In this document: one piece after another, positions 1,711 to 27,416 of the stretch
Numbering within the stretch: position 1 is the first letter of the stretch
Layout: every line of letters begins with the position of its first letter
Source: Bacteroidota bacterium
GTDB lineage: Bacteria; Bacteroidota; Ignavibacteria; Kapaibacteriales; UBA2268
Reading direction: 5' to 3'
Length of the DNA stretch: 64,000 nucleotides
Assembly (NCBI GenBank): GCA_021780815.1
Contig: JAJXYC010000013.1
Coordinates: 62,001 to 126,000 of the forward strand
Position numbers and translations under genes: made by a program
Notes under the pieces: generated by a model
What the model was told of the DNA's origin: nothing
What the model saw: only the letters and a program-made list of their open reading frames with translations
Database searches by the model: none

Positions 1711-2694
1711 ATGGATAAAGTAACCACATTAGCCCATCCCAATATTGCGCTTGTTAAATATTGGGGTAAAAGAGATGAACAATTAAATTTACCTGCTGTT
1801 GGTAGTATTTCGGTTACTTTAGATGAATTACAGACCAGAACAACCATAGAAAAACTTATAGGCAAGTGTCAAGATGAAATTATTTTTAATGATGTTATTG
1901 CTGATGAAAAAGAAGCAGAGAAAATAAGGAAGTATATTGATTTATTTCGTGAAAAAAGTAATGAGAAAATATATTTAAAAGTAGCAACAAGTAATAATTT
2001 CCCAACTTCGGCAGGTCTTGCTTCGTCTGCTTCTGGATTTGCGGCACTTGCAAAAGGATTATCTGAAATCTTTGAATTGAAATTGAACGCTCAAGAATTG
2101 TCTCGAATTGCAAGATTAGGAAGTGGTTCTGCTGCTCGTTCAATTTTTGGTGGATATGTGCAATTACATAAAGGGATTTTACCAAGTGGGGAAGATTGCT
2201 TTGCCGAACAGATATTGACAGCTGATGACTTCCCTCTGAAAACAATAATTGCTATAACTGATAAAACTCCTAAGAAAGTATCATCAAGAAAGGGAATGAA
2301 AGAATCCCAACAGACTTCGCCATACTATAATTCTTGGGTTGAAAGTTCTGACAATGATTTGCTTGTAATGAAAAAAGCGATAATAGAAAAAGATTTTTTT
2401 ACTATTGCTGAAATTTCAATCCAAAGTTGTTTGAAGATGCATTCTGTAATGATGACTACACAACCGCCATTAATTTATTGGAATAGCAAGACTTTTGCAA
2501 TTATTGAGCAAGTGCTTAAGATGTATAATGAGAAGTTCCCTGTATTTTTTACAATAGATGCTGGACCACAAGTAAAAATATTTACTTTTGAAGGTGAAGA
2601 AAAAAAAATTATAGAAAATTTAAAGAATTTAAATTTAATTGACGAACATTTCGTCATTGGAATTGGTAAAGGTATTGAAACAATTGAGGACTAA
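1711..2694 (+). CDS. mvaD: Diphosphomevalonate decarboxylase
   Basis: 327 residues, a normal length for the GHMP-family diphosphomevalonate decarboxylase, which turns mevalonate 5-diphosphate into isopentenyl diphosphate using ATP. The N-terminus has AHPNIALVKYWGKRDE, a hallmark of this enzyme. The ATP-binding loop is NFPTSAGLASSASGFAALA (about residues 96-114), followed by the signature GSGSAARSIFGGYV; the C-terminal TIDAGPQVKIF segment is also typical. First of three consecutive mevalonate genes; the next begins at the very base after its stop codon. Acts in the cytoplasm. The identity is secure because the KYWGK and SGSAARS motifs separate this enzyme from the other GHMP kinases nearby. 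Confidence 0.96.
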   Translation: MDKVTTLAHPNIALVKYWGKRDEQLNLPAVGSISVTLDELQTRTTIEKLIGKCQDEIIFNDVIADEKEAEKIRKYIDLFREKSNEKIYLKVATSNNFPTSAGLASSASGFAALAKGLSEIFELKLNAQELSRIARLGSGSAARSIFGGYVQLHKGILPSGEDCFAEQILTADDFPLKTIIAITDKTPKKVSSRKGMKESQQTSPYYNSWVESSDNDLLVMKKAIIEKDFFTIAEISIQSCLKMHSVMMTTQPPLIYWNSKTFAIIEQVLKMYNEKFPVFFTIDAGPQVKIFTFEGEEKKIIENLKNLNLIDEHFVIGIGKGIETIED

Positions 2695-3792
2695 TTGAGA
2701 ATCACTACAAAAACACCAGGCAAGTTGATTATTCTCGGTGAATATGCTGTTTTGGAAGGGGCTCCATCACTTGTTGCTTCTACAAACCGTTTTGCAAATG
2801 TGCTTTTCAAAAAATCAGAAGATGGAGTTTTTAAAATTGAAGCTCCTTCAATTAATGTTCCACTTTTGAAATTCTTTATTGATGATGAAGGAAAAGTAAA
2901 ATTTATTGGGAAATCTTTTAATAAAGTTGCTGAAAAATTAAGCTTATTTACTGCAACTTTTGAGTATGTTTCACGCAAATTAATAGAAAAAGGAATAAAG
3001 ATTCGTCCGCTGGAAATTTTTTTAGATACTTATGATTTTTACTCTGCTACTAATTTGTTGAAGTTAGGATTAGGTTCAAGTGCAGCGGTAACAGTTTCAA
3101 TAATAACTGGTTTACTTTCTGCTAATATATTAGAGCCAGACGAAATTACTCCCGAACAAATTTTGAAATTTTCAATAGATTCCCATAGAAATGCACAAGG
3201 TAATATCGGTAGTGGTGTAGATATTGTTGCCGCAATATATGGTGGTATTTTAAAATATCAAATTAAAGAAAAAGAAATTAAATTTAAACAGATTTCGATG
3301 CCAAAAGATCTGCATTATTTAACTGTTTGGACTGGTATCTCTGCTTCAACTACTGGCTATGTTGAAAGATTCAATAAATTTAAGAAAGAAAAACCTGCCG
3401 AGTTTTCTTCTTTAATTAAAGAAATGACCGAAATATCAAATTTAGGTATTAATGCTTTTGAAAATTGTGATATTAGGACCTTTTTAACATATTACGATAA
3501 TTATTTTTATTTTCTTAAAGATTTAAATATAAAATTAAACATAGAAGTAATAACAAAAGAGCATCAAGGGATCTATAATATTTGTAGGTCAGCCGGTGCT
3601 TACTACAAATCATCAGGAGCAGGTGGTGGAGATTTAGGAATTCTTTTTACTGATAATCTTGAAATTTTTGAAGATGTAAAAAAAGAACTTGTTAAGCGAG
3701 GTTTTGAGACTTTGGAAATTAAATTTGGAATTCCTGGGATTAAACCAGTAAAAATAGAAGGTGAAATAAATGCGGAACTCACGTATCCCTAA
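2695..3792 (+). CDS. Phosphomevalonate kinase (ERG8-type)
   Basis: 365 residues of GHMP-kinase fold. The N-terminus TKTPGKLIILGEYAVLEGAPSL, the ATP loop LGLGSSAAVTVS (about 124-135) and the C-terminal SSGAGGGDLGILF fit the phosphomevalonate kinase family, which phosphorylates mevalonate 5-phosphate. Position between mvaD and the reductase/mevalonate-kinase gene supports this over other GHMP kinases. The start is TTG directly after the TAA of mvaD: the conserved PGKLIILGEY strand begins at residue 8 and no ATG lies upstream in frame, so TTG 2695 is the best start and suggests translational coupling. The 3' end overlaps the next gene by 23 bases. Homoserine kinase or mevalonate kinase are less likely alternatives. 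Confidence 0.88.
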   Translation: MRITTKTPGKLIILGEYAVLEGAPSLVASTNRFANVLFKKSEDGVFKIEAPSINVPLLKFFIDDEGKVKFIGKSFNKVAEKLSLFTATFEYVSRKLIEKGIKIRPLEIFLDTYDFYSATNLLKLGLGSSAAVTVSIITGLLSANILEPDEITPEQILKFSIDSHRNAQGNIGSGVDIVAAIYGGILKYQIKEKEIKFKQISMPKDLHYLTVWTGISASTTGYVERFNKFKKEKPAEFSSLIKEMTEISNLGINAFENCDIRTFLTYYDNYFYFLKDLNIKLNIEVITKEHQGIYNICRSAGAYYKSSGAGGGDLGILFTDNLEIFEDVKKELVKRGFETLEIKFGIPGIKPVKIEGEINAELTYP

Positions 3793-6013
3793 TTTTTATG
3801 ATTTTACGATTTTTCAAAGATTAGATATTTTGCGTGAAAATGGCTTCTTGGAACAAGAAGACATCAAATCTTTATTAAATGGAGAATTTGATTTAACAGA
3901 AGAGACAGCCAATAAAATGGTTGAAAATGTAATTTCAATGTTCTCTTTACCGATGGGCATATCTTTAAATTTATTAATTAATGGTAAAGATTATTTAATT
4001 CCGATGGTGGTTGAAGAACCATCAATTATTGCGGCACAAAGTTCTGCCGCAAAGTTAATTCGTAAAGCCGGTGGATTTTATACAGAAAGTTCTAAACCTA
4101 TTTTGATTGGTCAAATTTTAATGACTAATGTTGAATATCCATCAAAATCAAAACAATCTATTTTACAGAAAAAAGAAGAAATTTTAGCATTTGCAAATTA
4201 TTTGCAACCCAAAATGTATGCCAGAGGTGGTGGAGCAATTGATTTAGATGTGCGTTTGCACCCAGCTACATCGAAATATGGCGATTTGTTAGTTGTGCAT
4301 ATTTATGTTGATACGAAAGATGCAATGGGAGCTAATTTAGTAAATAGTATGTGCGAAGGTATTTCGCCATTATTAGAAAAAATTGCAAATGCAAAATCAT
4401 TTATGCGAATTTTATCAAATCTACACGATAGATCAATAGCAAAGGCAAGATGTAAAATTCCCCCTGATTTATTATCTACAAATAACTTTTCAGGCGAAGA
4501 ATTAATTGAAGGTATAATTCTTGCAAATTATTTTGCTGCAATTGACCCTTATAGAGCCGCAACACACAATAAAGGTATTATGAATGCTATTGATCCAATA
4601 GCAATTGCTACGGGAAATGATTGGCGAGCGATTGAAGCAGGTGTGCATTCTTTTGCCGCAAAAGGTGAGCATTATACGACGCTTACCAATTGGTATAAAG
4701 ATGAACAAAATAATTTAATTGGTCAAATTGAAATTCCTTTGAAAGTAGGAACCGTAGGTGCACCGCTATCATCAAATCCGAAAATAAAATTTGCTTATAA
4801 AATATTAAATATAAAAACTGCAAATGAGCTGATGGAGATAATGGCATCTGCTGGACTTGCTCAAAACTTCGCAGCTTTGAAAGCATTGGTGAGTGAAGGT
4901 ATTCAACGTGGACATATGAGCTTGCATGCTCGTAGTGTTGCAAAAGCAGCGGGTGTAGAAGAAAAATATTTTGATATTGTTATTGATGAATTAATTAAAA
5001 GTGGTGAAGTTAAAATTTGGAAAGCACAAGAAATTGTTAAAAAATTAATGAATACATCAGAAGAGATAAATTTGGAAAAAACATTTTCAGAAGCAGAATT
5101 ACATTCAGGTTATGGGAAAGTAATTTTGTTCGGTGAACACGCAGTTGTTTATGGGAGTAATGCAATTGCGGCACCAATTCCTTATGCTATTAAATCAAAA
5201 GTGCTAAAAGCAGAAAATTCTTCAAATATTGTAATTCCTCGTTGGGGAGTTGAGTTTGATTTGTTCAATAAAAGACAAGAACCAAATTCATTAATTGCAG
5301 TTTTGGAATTAATTATTACAAAACTTGGATTAATCAATGAAAAGATGCAAATATTAGTTTTCCCGCATATACCAAGGGCTATGGGACTTGGTGGTTCTGC
5401 GGCACTTGCTGTTTCTGTAATTAGATCTATCGCTGATTATGGTAATATTAAATTAACAAATGAAGAAATTAATGATTTAGCTTACGAAACAGAAAAAGTC
5501 GTTCATGGAACACCTTCTGGTATTGACAATACTATGGCTACTTATGGTAAGCTAATCCGATATAAAAAAGAGATACAAGCTAAAACATATCCAATTGAAA
5601 TTAAAAAGCCTCTACCATTATTAATTGCTTTAAGTGGTTCAGAGGGTTTGACTTTAAAAATGGTGAGAGAAGTGCGTGAAGGCTGGCTGAAAAATCGTAA
5701 ACTTTATGATTCGATTTTTTCACAGATGAATGAAATTGCTCTTGAAGCAATGGACGCTATGCAAGAATATGATTTAGAAAAATTGGGTTATTTAATGAAT
5801 TTAAATCAAGGATTGCTTAATGCCATACAAGTTTCTACAAATGAATTAGAAGAAATGATATCTATTTGTAGAAAGAACGGAGCTTATGGTGCTAAACTAA
5901 CCGGTGGTGGTGGTGGTGGTGCAATCATTGCATTATGTCCTGAGAACAGAGAGGATATTGAAAAAGAATTAAATAATTTTGGTTATCAAACTATTATAAC
6001 TGATATTTCGTGA
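3770..6013 (+). CDS. Fused class II HMG-CoA reductase / mevalonate kinase
   Basis: 747 residues with two enzyme domains in one frame. Residues about 1-425 are a class II (Pseudomonas mevalonii-type) HMG-CoA reductase. The catalytic set is visible as E83 (VEEPS), K268 (THNKG), D284 (TGNDW) and H382 (GHMSLHA), with the DAMGANLVNSMCE segment. Residues about 445-747 are a mevalonate kinase: GYGKVILFGEHAVVYG, MGLGGSAALAVS (538-549), HGTPSGIDNTMATYG (579-593) and a six-glycine TGGGGGG loop near the end. The protein would make mevalonate from HMG-CoA and phosphorylate it, the first two committed steps. A short linker, about 420-445, joins them, and no stop or frameshift separates them. It overlaps the kinase gene upstream by 23 bases. 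I do not recall this fusion as a standard arrangement. Confidence 0.93.
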   Translation: MRNSRIPNFYDFTIFQRLDILRENGFLEQEDIKSLLNGEFDLTEETANKMVENVISMFSLPMGISLNLLINGKDYLIPMVVEEPSIIAAQSSAAKLIRKAGGFYTESSKPILIGQILMTNVEYPSKSKQSILQKKEEILAFANYLQPKMYARGGGAIDLDVRLHPATSKYGDLLVVHIYVDTKDAMGANLVNSMCEGISPLLEKIANAKSFMRILSNLHDRSIAKARCKIPPDLLSTNNFSGEELIEGIILANYFAAIDPYRAATHNKGIMNAIDPIAIATGNDWRAIEAGVHSFAAKGEHYTTLTNWYKDEQNNLIGQIEIPLKVGTVGAPLSSNPKIKFAYKILNIKTANELMEIMASAGLAQNFAALKALVSEGIQRGHMSLHARSVAKAAGVEEKYFDIVIDELIKSGEVKIWKAQEIVKKLMNTSEEINLEKTFSEAELHSGYGKVILFGEHAVVYGSNAIAAPIPYAIKSKVLKAENSSNIVIPRWGVEFDLFNKRQEPNSLIAVLELIITKLGLINEKMQILVFPHIPRAMGLGGSAALAVSVIRSIADYGNIKLTNEEINDLAYETEKVVHGTPSGIDNTMATYGKLIRYKKEIQAKTYPIEIKKPLPLLIALSGSEGLTLKMVREVREGWLKNRKLYDSIFSQMNEIALEAMDAMQEYDLEKLGYLMNLNQGLLNAIQVSTNELEEMISICRKNGAYGAKLTGGGGGGAIIALCPENREDIEKELNNFGYQTIITDIS

Positions 6014-23062: not shown

Positions 23063-25126
23063 TTACATAACAGCAGTTGGTGGAGCTGGTTCGTCAGGAC
23101 TACCTGCATTTTTAACAGGTACCCAAACCAAATAAGCACCAATTGCAAATAATACAATAAGACTAATAATAAACGGAGCCGCAGGCCAAATTTCTGGTGG
23201 GAAAATATTGCCAACACGCAATCCGGCAAATATTAGACCCATCAAAGCTTCACCGGCTATTAATCCAGATGCAATCAAAACACCTGTATTTTCTACTCTT
23301 GCTTTTTGAGCGGGGTTGTATTTATTCTTTTCATTAAGTATATCTACTAGACCTTTCATTAACCCACCAAAGAAGATTGCGAATGTAGTTTCAACAGGTA
23401 AATACATACCGACACTAACAAGCATAGGACTTTTGATTTGCATTAAGATAAAAGCAATTCCCATCAACATACCTACGATAATTAGAGGCCAAGCCATTTG
23501 ACCTTCGACAATACCTTTTGAGAGCATAGCCATTAAACCTGCTTGCGGGGCTGATAAATTCTGACTGCCAAAACCACCTTCATACCCTTCTCTTAAACCT
23601 TGTGCAATATCGCCATCATTTAAGAAAGAAAGAACTAAGAACATAACTAATCCAGCGAGGATTACGCCCATAATATCACCAATTTGCATTTTCCAAGGAG
23701 TACCGCCGAGTATGTGTCCTGCTTTTAAGTCTTGTAACATTTCGCCGGCAACAGCTGCGGCAACACAAACAATTGCGGCAACACCTAAAACAGCTTTTAC
23801 TCCACCACTATTTGTATCTACGCCCATTATTACCAAAATTAAGGCTGTAACTACCAAAGCAGTTAAAGTTAAACCTGATATTGGGTTATTACTACTACCA
23901 ATAATTCCAACTAAATATCCTGAAACTGCGGCAAAGAAAAATGCCAATATAATCATCAATGTTGCCGCTACTAATGCTACTAAAAATGAAGTTTGGAATA
24001 TAAAGAAAGTGATTAAAAAAGTAGCAATAGCAACGATGATAATACCAGTTAATATCCAAATAAAAGGTAAATCTTTTTCAGTTCTGTTCGAAGCAACAAC
24101 GCCACCAATTGCAGCTTTTTTTACATCGCCAACTGAACGTTTAATTCCTTCAAATAAACTTTTACGCATTTTGTATAATGTAAAGATAGCTCCAACAAGC
24201 ATTCCTCCAATCGCAATAGGACGAACGATGTATTTCCAAACTGACATAATTTGGTAAAGTGGGTCGTTGACATTTTTTAAAGCTTGTGCAAACGGAATAT
24301 TATTTGCAGCCGCAAGTTGAGTTGCCCACTGGTTTAAATTAATATTTGGAGCAATAAAATACATAATAATAGGAGAAAGTAATCCCCAAGCAATAACTCC
24401 ACCGCTAAAGTTGAGTGAAGCAAGCTTTGGTCCAATAATATAACCAACACCCATATAAGCAGGACTTACAGCGGGAGAACTCATCATTATTCCACCTTGT
24501 CCTTGGAAAACAGTCCCTGTAACGACTTGTTTTGAGAATGAGTAAAATTTTTGCCATAAATCAGGGAATACTTTAAATTCAACTAATAATTTAATTAAGC
24601 CACCGAAGCCCATTCCGCCAAATAAAAATTTAGAACCTGAACCTCCTGTTCTTCCTGTTTTGTGAATTTCAGAAGCGGCAACAGATTCTGGGAAAGGCAA
24701 ATCAGCATCTTCAACCATTACTCTACGAAGTAAGGCAACAAACATAATACCTAAAATACCACCAAAAATCAAAATTAATGATGCTGTAATATAAGTACTT
24801 GTTGTTAAAAAAGGTCTCCAAATTCCTGCGATATAAAATGCTGGTAATGTGAAAATTGCCCCAGCGGCTATAGATTCACCAATTGAACCTACTGTACGAG
24901 TGATGTTTTCTTCTAAAATTGAACCACGTGTGATTTTTAGAAGTGCCATACCAATTACCGCTGCCGGATATGTTGCGGCAATTGTCATACCTGCTTTTAA
25001 GCCTAAATATGCGTTTGCGGCTCCTAAAATAACCGCAAGTATCAATCCAATGATTAAAGCTCGTAATGTGAACTCACTCATCGTTGATTCGGGTGATACA
25101 AAAGGGATAAATTTTTTTTCTGCCAT
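23063..25126 (-). CDS. OPT-family oligopeptide transporter
   Basis: 687 residues, largely hydrophobic with about 14-16 membrane spans. The start EFTLRALIIGLILAVILGAANAYLGLKAGMTIAATYPAAVIGMALL and the SVAASEIHKTGRTG segment (about 148-162) match bacterial OPT proteins, which import small peptides or metal chelates with proton symport. The C-terminus is a short Pro-rich tail. ATG 25126 is preceded by GGTGAATTG; a TTG codon just before it is not needed. It is a single-gene unit with its own terminator. Substrate unknown: no peptidase or siderophore gene is adjacent. Confidence 0.93.
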   Translation of the reverse strand: MAEKKFIPFVSPESTMSEFTLRALIIGLILAVILGAANAYLGLKAGMTIAATYPAAVIGMALLKITRGSILEENITRTVGSIGESIAAGAIFTLPAFYIAGIWRPFLTTSTYITASLILIFGGILGIMFVALLRRVMVEDADLPFPESVAASEIHKTGRTGGSGSKFLFGGMGFGGLIKLLVEFKVFPDLWQKFYSFSKQVVTGTVFQGQGGIMMSSPAVSPAYMGVGYIIGPKLASLNFSGGVIAWGLLSPIIMYFIAPNINLNQWATQLAAANNIPFAQALKNVNDPLYQIMSVWKYIVRPIAIGGMLVGAIFTLYKMRKSLFEGIKRSVGDVKKAAIGGVVASNRTEKDLPFIWILTGIIIVAIATFLITFFIFQTSFLVALVAATLMIILAFFFAAVSGYLVGIIGSSNNPISGLTLTALVVTALILVIMGVDTNSGGVKAVLGVAAIVCVAAAVAGEMLQDLKAGHILGGTPWKMQIGDIMGVILAGLVMFLVLSFLNDGDIAQGLREGYEGGFGSQNLSAPQAGLMAMLSKGIVEGQMAWPLIIVGMLMGIAFILMQIKSPMLVSVGMYLPVETTFAIFFGGLMKGLVDILNEKNKYNPAQKARVENTGVLIASGLIAGEALMGLIFAGLRVGNIFPPEIWPAAPFIISLIVLFAIGAYLVWVPVKNAGSPDEPAPPTAVM

Positions 25127-25265: not shown

Positions 25266-25925
25266 TTAATGATTGATTTCTTTTAATATATCTTTCGCTA
25301 AAGTTTCAATAATATTATTTGCCGCAGAATTTACTGCGGGAGCAATCGTTTCTGCTTTATTGCTTGGTCTTTGAACTTTATTGGTATATGTATTTGAATA
25401 AATCATTTCTAAATCCAAACTGTCTTTTGTGTAAGATAATAAACTAATTTCTAAAGATAATTCTACATAACTTGTATCATCTTGCTTATTAGTCCCATTA
25501 TATATTTTAAGCCCTAAAATTTCACCTTCTAAAATATAATTTGGTATTTGAACTGTATTTTGAGAAACCACTCCACCAACGAAATATTTTTCTAAATTTA
25601 ATTTGCTTATTGTAAGCCAAGTAAAAAGTTCCGCAAAGTTATCATTCCATCTATAATAATATAATTTTTGAATTTCTCCTTTGCTGTTTTCTACTTGAAA
25701 ACGCTTGTCTGTGAGTGCATTTGAACCAGTAAAAGAACGAACTTGTAAAATGCCTTCTGCTTTTATTTTACTTACTTCGGTTGCTTTTTGTGATAAACTA
25801 TAATAATTAATATCTGGGTAATCCTCTCGTAAGTTTATGCAAGAAGTTAGAATTTGAGATGAAATTAATATTATAATTATTAAAGTTACTTTAAGTGAAA
25901 TAAAAGTATTAAATTTGTAAATCAT
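25266..25925 (-). CDS. PqiC/ABC-transport auxiliary lipoprotein-like
   Basis: 219 residues. A long hydrophobic signal ends in the lipobox LTSC with C29 as lipidated residue. The mature part NYYSLSQKATEVSKIKAEGILQVRSFTGSNALTDKRFQVE and LYYYRWNDNFAELFTWLTISKL follow the PqiC/YmbA (ABC_trans_aux) pattern, periplasmic lipoproteins that accompany MCE lipid transporters. The core transporter genes (MlaD-like MCE, ATPase, permease) are not in this window, so it is separated from its presumed partners. Divergent from the histidine-kinase-like gene. Confidence 0.72.
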   Translation of the reverse strand: MIYKFNTFISLKVTLIIIILISSQILTSCINLREDYPDINYYSLSQKATEVSKIKAEGILQVRSFTGSNALTDKRFQVENSKGEIQKLYYYRWNDNFAELFTWLTISKLNLEKYFVGGVVSQNTVQIPNYILEGEILGLKIYNGTNKQDDTSYVELSLEISLLSYTKDSLDLEMIYSNTYTNKVQRPSNKAETIAPAVNSAANNIIETLAKDILKEINH

Positions 25926-26006: not shown

Positions 26007-27416
26007 ATGGAAATGGGAAATGATATTCATACGTTTTTAGCTGAGCATATTCAATCTATGCTCAATAAATTTATCTTTGTGTTTAATGAAAATAAAATTT
26101 TATGGACAAATTCGGAATTAAACCAATTCTTTAATATTAAAAAAGAAGCAGTAATTGGTAAGTTTTTTGAAGAACTTGTTAATGAATTATTTCCTGAAAA
26201 TAGTAAATTAATCCAAAACAATTTTGTAGAATTTATAACCAATAATGAAGAATACAGAAAATTTGATAATTTCACTTATTCTAAAAATATAGATGAATTA
26301 TTTGCTTTCGAATTATATAAAATATATATTCAAGGGGTATATGTATATTTATGTTTAATCAACAAAGTAGTTCCAAATTCTTCAAATGATAACAACTTAT
26401 TAGCAAGCAAAGTAAGTAGAACTGAAAATATTGTTTTCAACTCAATGAAAAAAGTAAATGAAATCTTTTCTCTATATCAATCATTAATGGAGAAAAACAA
26501 AGAACTTATACATCAATTATTTGAGAAAGACAATGATATGAAATTGCTTACAAAGTCTATTACAGAAAAGGAGACGGGCTTAATTCTTTTGCAGAAGAAA
26601 ATTCAAGATGAAAAAGAACTTCAAAAATCAAAAGAAGAACAGTTTCATAACTTAATGATTCAACAAAATAGAGCAAATGAAAGTAAAATTGCGGAGCTGA
26701 CAAATTTTTTGAATATGCAAAATATGATTTTAGCAAATATTGGAAAAGAATTAAGAACGCCGCTTAATGGAATTTTAGGATTTACACAACTTTTGCAAAT
26801 TGAAATTCCAGAAAAATCCATTGCAAATGAATTTTTAACACATATTAAAAATTCAGCAAATAAACTTCAAAAGATTTTGGATAATTTAACTCTTTTGGCG
26901 GATTTAGAAACTAAAAATAAAAAAATTGATTTTAATTTAATTAATTTAAATAACTTATGCTTAAAATTTTGCCCAAAATATAATAATGATGCAAAAGGTA
27001 AAAAGTATGAATTTTCATATTCTATTAAAAGCAAAGACATTACAATTAATGCAGATGAAAATTTGTTAGTTTATGTTATAGAGCAATTACTTGATAATTC
27101 ATTTAAATATACTACTCGTGGCTTTATTCGTTTAGAAATAGAAGAATTTGATAATAAGGAAAAGAAATTTGCTTTAATAAAAATTAAAGATTCGGGGAAA
27201 GGTATATCAAAGACACAGTTAAATAATATATTTTTACCATTTAAACAAGCAAATAATTTAGGGGAATCTGAACAATTTCAAAGTTTTGGTATGAGTTTGG
27301 CAATTATTAAAAAGATTGTAGAAAGAATGGATGGAACAATAGGAATCCAAAGTGTTTTAGGGCAGGGGACAACTGTTATTTTACAATTCCCAATGCAAAA
27401 TTATACTGCAAATTAA
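26007..27416 (+). CDS. Histidine-kinase-like protein lacking the phospho-acceptor His
   Basis: 469 residues, soluble. Residues about 10-130 look PAS-like (KFIFVFNENKILWTNSELNQFF). A coiled coil runs about 135-240. The dimerisation helix reads MILANIGKELRTPLNGILGF, where canonical kinases have SHELRTPLN: the phospho-acceptor His is Lys (residue 247, codon AAA at 26745). The ATP-binding domain keeps an N-box (EQLLDNSFKYT), the DSGKGI G1 motif and a G2-like SFGMSLAIIKKIVERMDG. It therefore could bind ATP but cannot phosphorylate itself at the usual site. It may act as an allosteric or sequestering partner. No response regulator is adjacent. The upstream gene diverges. Confidence 0.85.
   Translation: MEMGNDIHTFLAEHIQSMLNKFIFVFNENKILWTNSELNQFFNIKKEAVIGKFFEELVNELFPENSKLIQNNFVEFITNNEEYRKFDNFTYSKNIDELFAFELYKIYIQGVYVYLCLINKVVPNSSNDNNLLASKVSRTENIVFNSMKKVNEIFSLYQSLMEKNKELIHQLFEKDNDMKLLTKSITEKETGLILLQKKIQDEKELQKSKEEQFHNLMIQQNRANESKIAELTNFLNMQNMILANIGKELRTPLNGILGFTQLLQIEIPEKSIANEFLTHIKNSANKLQKILDNLTLLADLETKNKKIDFNLINLNNLCLKFCPKYNNDAKGKKYEFSYSIKSKDITINADENLLVYVIEQLLDNSFKYTTRGFIRLEIEEFDNKEKKFALIKIKDSGKGISKTQLNNIFLPFKQANNLGESEQFQSFGMSLAIIKKIVERMDGTIGIQSVLGQGTTVILQFPMQNYTAN

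Follow-up and report, generated by a model that had tools for sequence, protein, structure and literature searches.

GacS and RetS, which are among the best solved matches of the protein described here, are membrane-bound hybrid kinases. The two have been solved together as a RetS-GacS co-complex (PDB 7n0e). DivL of Caulobacter has a HisKA-type core with Tyr550 in place of the acceptor His; in the experiments described in PMC4211667 it shows neither kinase nor phosphatase activity and binds TNP-ATP weakly, and still binds DivK~P. A further parallel is a pseudokinase variant of ChrS from Corynebacterium glutamicum, a kinase-dead histidine kinase (HK) that aids signalling via a partner kinase; heterodimers of HrrS and ChrS were observed in the same study. 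This variant differs from our protein, however, in that it arose by laboratory evolution, carries a frameshift in its ATPase domain and retains its His (PMC9491836). More generally, 722 of 76,471 HisKA domains (0.9%) lack the His in the survey of PMC12632262, which describes a general class and not one family. Pseudo-histidine kinases are thus uncommon, and few of them are understood.

We analysed a window of 64,000 nucleotides from a Bacteroidota genome (assembly GCA_021780815.1), which contains an HK-like open reading frame (ORF) belonging to this general class (Table 1). Its product, hereafter the window protein, is soluble and made up of PAS, coiled-coil, HisKA and HATPase_c parts; its PAS-like N-terminus scores below the Pfam cut-off. 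The HisKA and HATPase_c domains both score above theirs, so the ORF represents a real HK fold and not a chance string. The H-box reads ILANIGKELRTPLNGI and has Lys247, encoded by AAA, at the phospho-His position, which confirms the substitution named in the original prediction. The accompanying claim that no nearby His could act as a substitute is borne out as well: the only His residues of the protein are at positions 8, 14, 169, 214 and 279, the closest being 32-33 residues from Lys247, and there is none within 31 residues of it. With Lys247 the window protein lacks the phospho-accepting His of a HisKA-type histidine kinase; an HK fold without the residue required for phosphotransfer is a pseudo-histidine kinase. 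It is rare in detail and belongs to a known but uncommon kind.

Table 1. Features of the pseudo-histidine kinase locus (window coordinates; aa numbering of the 469-aa protein).
Feature	Coordinates	Strand	Basis
OPT-family transporter, syntenic in G001 (80% identity)	23063..25126	-	
Divergent lipoprotein gene, syntenic marker of the locus	25266..25925	-	
Pseudo-histidine kinase ORF, 469 aa	26007..27416	+	ORF list, translation, Pfam
PAS-like region, about aa 14-121	26046..26369	+	Pfam PAS below cut-off; hhalign homology; modelled beta strands (low-confidence model)
Long coiled-coil helix, about aa 135-240, continuing into the DHp helix	26409..26726	+	AlphaFold model, helix 135-266
HisKA (DHp) domain, aa 238-302	26718..26912	+	PF00512, 44.4 bits (cut-off 26.9)
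Codon AAA, Lys247 at the phospho-His position	26745..26747	+	Sequence
ELRT (E248-T251), acidic residue and Thr of the HxxxT motif retained	26748..26759	+	Sequence; motif as described in PMC5727384
HATPase_c domain, aa 350-464	27054..27398	+	PF02518, 73.7 bits (cut-off 26.4)
N-box Asn364, retained	27096..27098	+	Census alignment
G1 box DSGKG (395-399), retained	27189..27203	+	Sequence, census alignment
G2 box altered, S426-F-G428-M-S430, not GxGxG	27282..27296	+	Census alignment

An AlphaFold model computed from a six-row alignment (mean pLDDT 67) is poor in the PAS region and has one continuous helix from residue 135 to 266 and a standard DHp/CA core. The best solved matches of this model in Foldseek are GacS, WalK, RetS and ZraS, with DivL at rank 49, while a sequence search of solved structures returned GacS chain 7z8n first and DivL (PDB 4q20) with an E-value of 6e-9. 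GacS and RetS (PDB 7z8n, 6dk7/6dk8, 7n0e) thus rank among the best solved matches in both fold and sequence. The solved GacS chain, however, keeps the His in its H-box (SHEIRTPLNGI), where the window protein has Lys. DivL shares with the window protein a HisKA-type core devoid of the acceptor His, but the identity is about 20%, the Tyr expected at the acceptor position of a DivL orthologue is replaced by Lys, and no counterpart of CckA or of DivK was identified.

Five genomes represent the genus, G000 (that of the window) to G004, and two, G018 and G064, its sister genus. A census of HATPase_c matches covered G000-G004 and G018 (39 matches came from G000 and 138 from the remaining five genomes; 22 of the latter were left out as resembling, by match length, CheA, GyrB, MutL or anti-sigma ATPases). 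Two proteins of the HisKA_3 type (L316 and L318), in which an R/Q stems from a column out of register, possess a His, and we did not score them as losses. The D rows of the HisKA_3 type and the gapped or unalignable rows (CheA, L192, L314 and others) were likewise left out of the losses. In the census alignment the window protein retains N364 of the N-box and D395, G397 and G399 of the G1 box, and two of the three glycines of the G2 box are replaced by Ser (S426 and S430). The original prediction that the ATP-binding motifs are kept therefore holds for the N-box and G1 but not for G2, and its suggestion of an ATP-dependent sensor loses force, since the change falls in the G2 box, the ATP lid. 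As 15 of 117 His-bearing rows also have Ser at the first G2 position, S426 says little. The third is Gly in all 113 His-bearing rows that have a residue there, and Ser in the window protein, in its orthologue from G001 (see below) and in L200, another Lys-bearing protein of the same genome; the His-bearing orthologue from G004 has all three glycines. Counted by events, which we grouped ourselves and whose relatedness is ignored, a G2-box Ser accompanies 3 of 9 losses of the His, compared to 0 of 113 His-bearing rows (Fisher p 0.0003).

Apart from the window protein itself, the best match in the five genomes of the genus is a protein of G004 (E 5e-54, 32%), which retains the His (ILANLGHELRTPLNGI). 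The orthologue in G001 is a 340-aa protein without PAS, whose ruined H-box (SISYTMKIPISTI) has Tyr at the acceptor position. It shares the arrangement of the locus, adjoining the OPT transporter and the lipoprotein (80% and 38% identity, respectively), with the HK-like gene divergent. When searched against the HK-like ORFs that the census covers in six genomes, the Lys, His and Tyr proteins are each other's two best matches, and they fall into one clade of a maximum likelihood (ML) tree (99/98). Conservation of Lys among the orthologues is ruled out by the His of G004 and the Tyr of G001, which leaves a Lys-specific function unsupported; the identity of the residue is probably of no matter, and what matters is the loss of the His. 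The pseudo-kinase reading of the original prediction is supported by Lys247 and the G2 change. Close orthologues all carrying His, the outcome it had named as speaking against it, were not what we found, since one of the two genus orthologues, that of G001, has Tyr.

The neighbourhood differs elsewhere in the two genera. In G018 and G064 the gene opposite the lipoprotein encodes a 198-aa PAS/coiled-coil protein without a kinase domain, in which PAS_8 passes the Pfam cut-off; hhalign relates its PAS region to the window protein's over 100 columns (P 3e-7). G003 has the lipoprotein and no such gene beside it, and the search for the lipoprotein in G002 found none. In G004 the start codon of the lipoprotein coincides with the last three bases of contig C34 and contig C75 ends 67 bases before the start of the HK gene; no overlap between the two contigs was found, and that the two genes, both at contig ends, are adjacent is a guess. 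A search of the genome-contig collection for related loci found no relative. The nine neighbouring ORFs scanned by Pfam (Hsp33, an unknown protein, the OPT transporter, the lipoprotein, an aminotransferase, a HAD hydrolase, an Nramp transporter, a protein matching Phenol_MetA_deg and one matching thioredoxin below the cut-off) include no response regulator, and the window gene looks like an orphan kinase-like gene.

When the catalytic cores are compared by Tajima-type relative-rate tests against seven outgroups, the Lys protein has 25-32 unique changes and the His orthologue 22-29 (p 0.17 to 0.90; for example 31 vs 27, p 0.60), with 14 and 13 changes, respectively, at the 85 columns common to at least five of the seven outgroups. 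Not being accelerated relative to the His orthologue, the core of the Lys protein is thus, apart from the acceptor, as well kept as that of the intact kinase. The core of the G001 Tyr protein, in contrast, is clearly faster (34 vs 6 changes, p 1e-5). Simple decay of the window gene is therefore unsupported by the rate test, although the ML tree path of the Lys protein is somewhat longer (1.17, compared to 0.45+0.28 for the His orthologue). Controls (the OPT transporter, the lipoprotein and two other HK groups) indicate that the G000 lineage is not generally faster than G004; the G004 side is faster for OPT (two of three outgroups) and for the mutL-linked HK group described below, so the equal core rates might mask a slight speeding-up of the Lys protein. 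Regarding the number of losses, the core ML tree joins the His protein of G004 with the Tyr protein of G001 (86/82), and other proteins place G004 with G001/G002 (100/100). Together these splits suggest that the His was likely lost twice, separately in G000 and G001. They also argue against a single loss common to both genomes, which an AU test with the Lys and Tyr proteins together does not reject (p 0.229).

From the replaced acceptor, the order of domains, the altered G2 box, the different loss of the His in the syntenic orthologue and the unaccelerated core, we favour, with a little more belief than doubt, the reading that the window protein is a pseudo-histidine kinase that acts as a non-catalytic dimer, scaffold or sensor in the manner of DivL. 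The PAS domain and the long coiled coil would form the dimer. With Lys as acceptor and an altered G2 box in the ATP lid, the HK core would be unable to autophosphorylate at the usual position, and ATP turnover would be weak or absent. The folded DHp/CA core would bind either another kinase, in a heterodimer, or a receiver or phospho-receiver, and so relay the PAS signal as DivL does; we infer dimerisation, binding partner and signal alike. Given the long coiled coil of the model, regulation of another kinase via dimerisation, as originally predicted, is plausible, and a core that evolves no faster than that of the His orthologue lends indirect support to a retained signalling role. The precedents of DivL and ChrS also favour this reading, as do the nearest solved folds, which include the co-complex partners GacS and RetS as well as DivL. 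Several points weigh against this reading: Lys is found in one genome only, the kinase part may be dispensable judging from the sister-genus protein at the locus, no partner was identified and no response regulator lies among the nine neighbours, the tree path is longer, and the retained Glu and Thr of the HxxxT motif fit a phosphatase equally.

It is the retention of E248 and T251 that makes a dedicated phosphatase the chief rival, with slow loss of the kinase part next. A protein that has lost its kinase activity might still use the E and T of the HxxxT motif (here K-E-L-R-T) to dephosphorylate a cognate response regulator. In EnvZ, H243A abolishes the kinase and T247A the phosphatase activity (PMC5727384), and according to PMC12632262 the His is not essential to HisKA phosphatase activity. 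The same source states that the His does contribute to the HisKA reaction, however, and phosphatase activity as a general role of pseudo-HKs is a misfit with the domain-wide pattern it describes. Moreover, the His-less G001 orthologue reads YTMKI, in which the Thr is gone, and no cognate regulator stands beside the window gene among the nine neighbours. On balance we regard the phosphatase as unlikely, though worth serious attention. Much the same holds for the view that PAS and coiled coil are the functional parts and that several lineages are shedding the HK core. The kinase-less 198-aa proteins of G018 and G064, the fast core and ruined H-box of G001 and the retention of the His in G004 alone all fit such a course; the core of the window protein, in contrast, is intact in frame, lies above both Pfam cut-offs and at conserved columns has changed no more quickly than that of the His orthologue, and we doubt that it is on its way out.

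An ATPase domain that phosphorylates the His of a partner kinase within a heterodimer would have no need of its own His. The retained N-box and G1 box and the known HK heterodimers (PMC9491836) would allow this, but G2 is altered at a position that is invariant in the His-bearing relatives and the protein is without a known partner, so that we consider such a division of labour improbable. A working kinase with Lys247 as an N-phospholysine acceptor is very hard to credit. Lys does sit exactly at the acceptor position and the adjacent Glu is retained, but Lys is not conserved, the orthologue has Tyr, G2 is changed, and a partial search of the literature found no HK with a Lys acceptor. We give equally little weight to a sequencing or assembly error in an ordinary kinase. 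The protein comes from one genome assembly, with no second strain for comparison; on the other hand, a His codon (CAY) becomes a Lys codon (AAR) only through two or more base changes, which a lone sequencing error could not produce, the G2 box differs too, and the syntenic G001 orthologue is also without the His.

The window protein is not alone in its genome. Of the 32 G000 proteins with an assignable H-box in the census, 5 lack the His: the window protein, L208 and L200 (both Lys), L210 (Arg) and L209 (Tyr). Set against the published 0.9% this gives p 1e-5, a comparison that is not like for like, since only two of the five pass the Pfam HisKA cut-off. The window protein is thus one case in a lineage rich in His-less kinase-like proteins, several of which seem to have been made by relatives of this organism.

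The genus and its sister hold two conserved groups of PAS HKs that lack the His throughout. One consists of L209 (2442-4466; G000 contig C13) and L323-L327 and has Tyr at the acceptor position in all six genomes in which it occurs (G000, G001, G002, G004, G018 and G064, two genera); at E 1e-70 it is found in 6 of the 54 genomes of the family. Its genes adjoin a 207-aa gene and one that, by the look of its sequence, we take to be mreB, which is seen upstream in five genomes and not within the stretch covered for G064. This mreB-linked group is a candidate for a conserved DivL-like pseudo-kinase tied to a cell-shape gene. The other group (L208, 3274-4572, G000 contig C16, with L321, L290, L289 and L274) retains the N, G1 and G2 boxes throughout and never carries His, having Lys in G000 and G004, Phe in G001, Val in G002 and Gln in G018, at 46-51% identity to the G000 member. 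In four of the five genomes it adjoins a 169-aa gene and a gene that we read as mutL; in G018 both are absent from the 2.9 kb upstream.

Three further loci of G000 are of note. L200 (942-2090; contig C6) encodes a receiver-HK with Lys at the acceptor position (IFNKNLRDPF) and Ser in G2, the best relatives of which in G002 and G004 keep the His. L210 (2370-4193; contig C17) is a PAS HK with Arg at the acceptor position, its best relative having Gln in G001 and His in G004. Finally, in L213 (contig C4) a TPR-like/HisKA ORF (1676-2131) and a HATPase_c ORF (2192-3868) lie end to end, perhaps as a split or frameshifted kinase gene.

Motif scans show that the state of the window protein is rare. A scan of the genome-contig collection for H-boxes of the KE[x]RTPxN type matched 9 DNA stretches, three of them within HK-like ORFs; these (L095, L098 and L101) have Lys for His in a regular H-box and stem from Chloroflexi, Anaerovibrio and Sulfuricurvum MAGs. 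Across the family (54 genomes) the motif in its His form has 303 matches in 49 genomes, not checked individually. The non-His form, a pattern (DNN) of codons not starting with C that misses Gln, Leu, Pro and part of Arg, has 8 matches, 3 of them in HK ORFs, namely the Lys of the window protein and a Tyr each in G018 and G064. Among 395 genomes sampled from the phylum the non-His pattern matched in three genomes, and in an HK ORF in the window genome only; of the other two matches, one is in a 55-aa ORF and one has an in-frame stop within the matched letters. The Tyr proteins of the sister genus (L211, 5175-7136, G018 contig C63, and L212, 5061-5957, G064 contig C38) are PAS HKs whose H-box is otherwise regular (YELRTPLNGI); the genes downstream of them are, by the look of their sequences, presumably murD and ftsW/rodA.

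Taken as a whole, it is possible, if rather doubtful, that this lineage has turned several sensor kinases non-catalytic, so that a layer of pseudo-kinase regulators would lie over the working kinases. Such a layer would comprise the Tyr group fixed at mreB (six of six genomes, two genera), the mutL-linked group with its drifted acceptor (K, K, F, V, Q) and more recently converted proteins like that of the window, where the acceptor may on more than one occasion have been lost together with a Gly to Ser change in the ATP lid. One orthologue group with His, Lys and Tyr versions, together with the kinase-less proteins of the sister genus, forms a natural series that lets one ask which functions are left to a sensor kinase once its acceptor is gone. 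The two further groups that never carry His, beside mreB and (mostly) mutL, extend this question to conserved proteins, and the mreB-linked Tyr group, being conserved, would be a better first target than the window protein.
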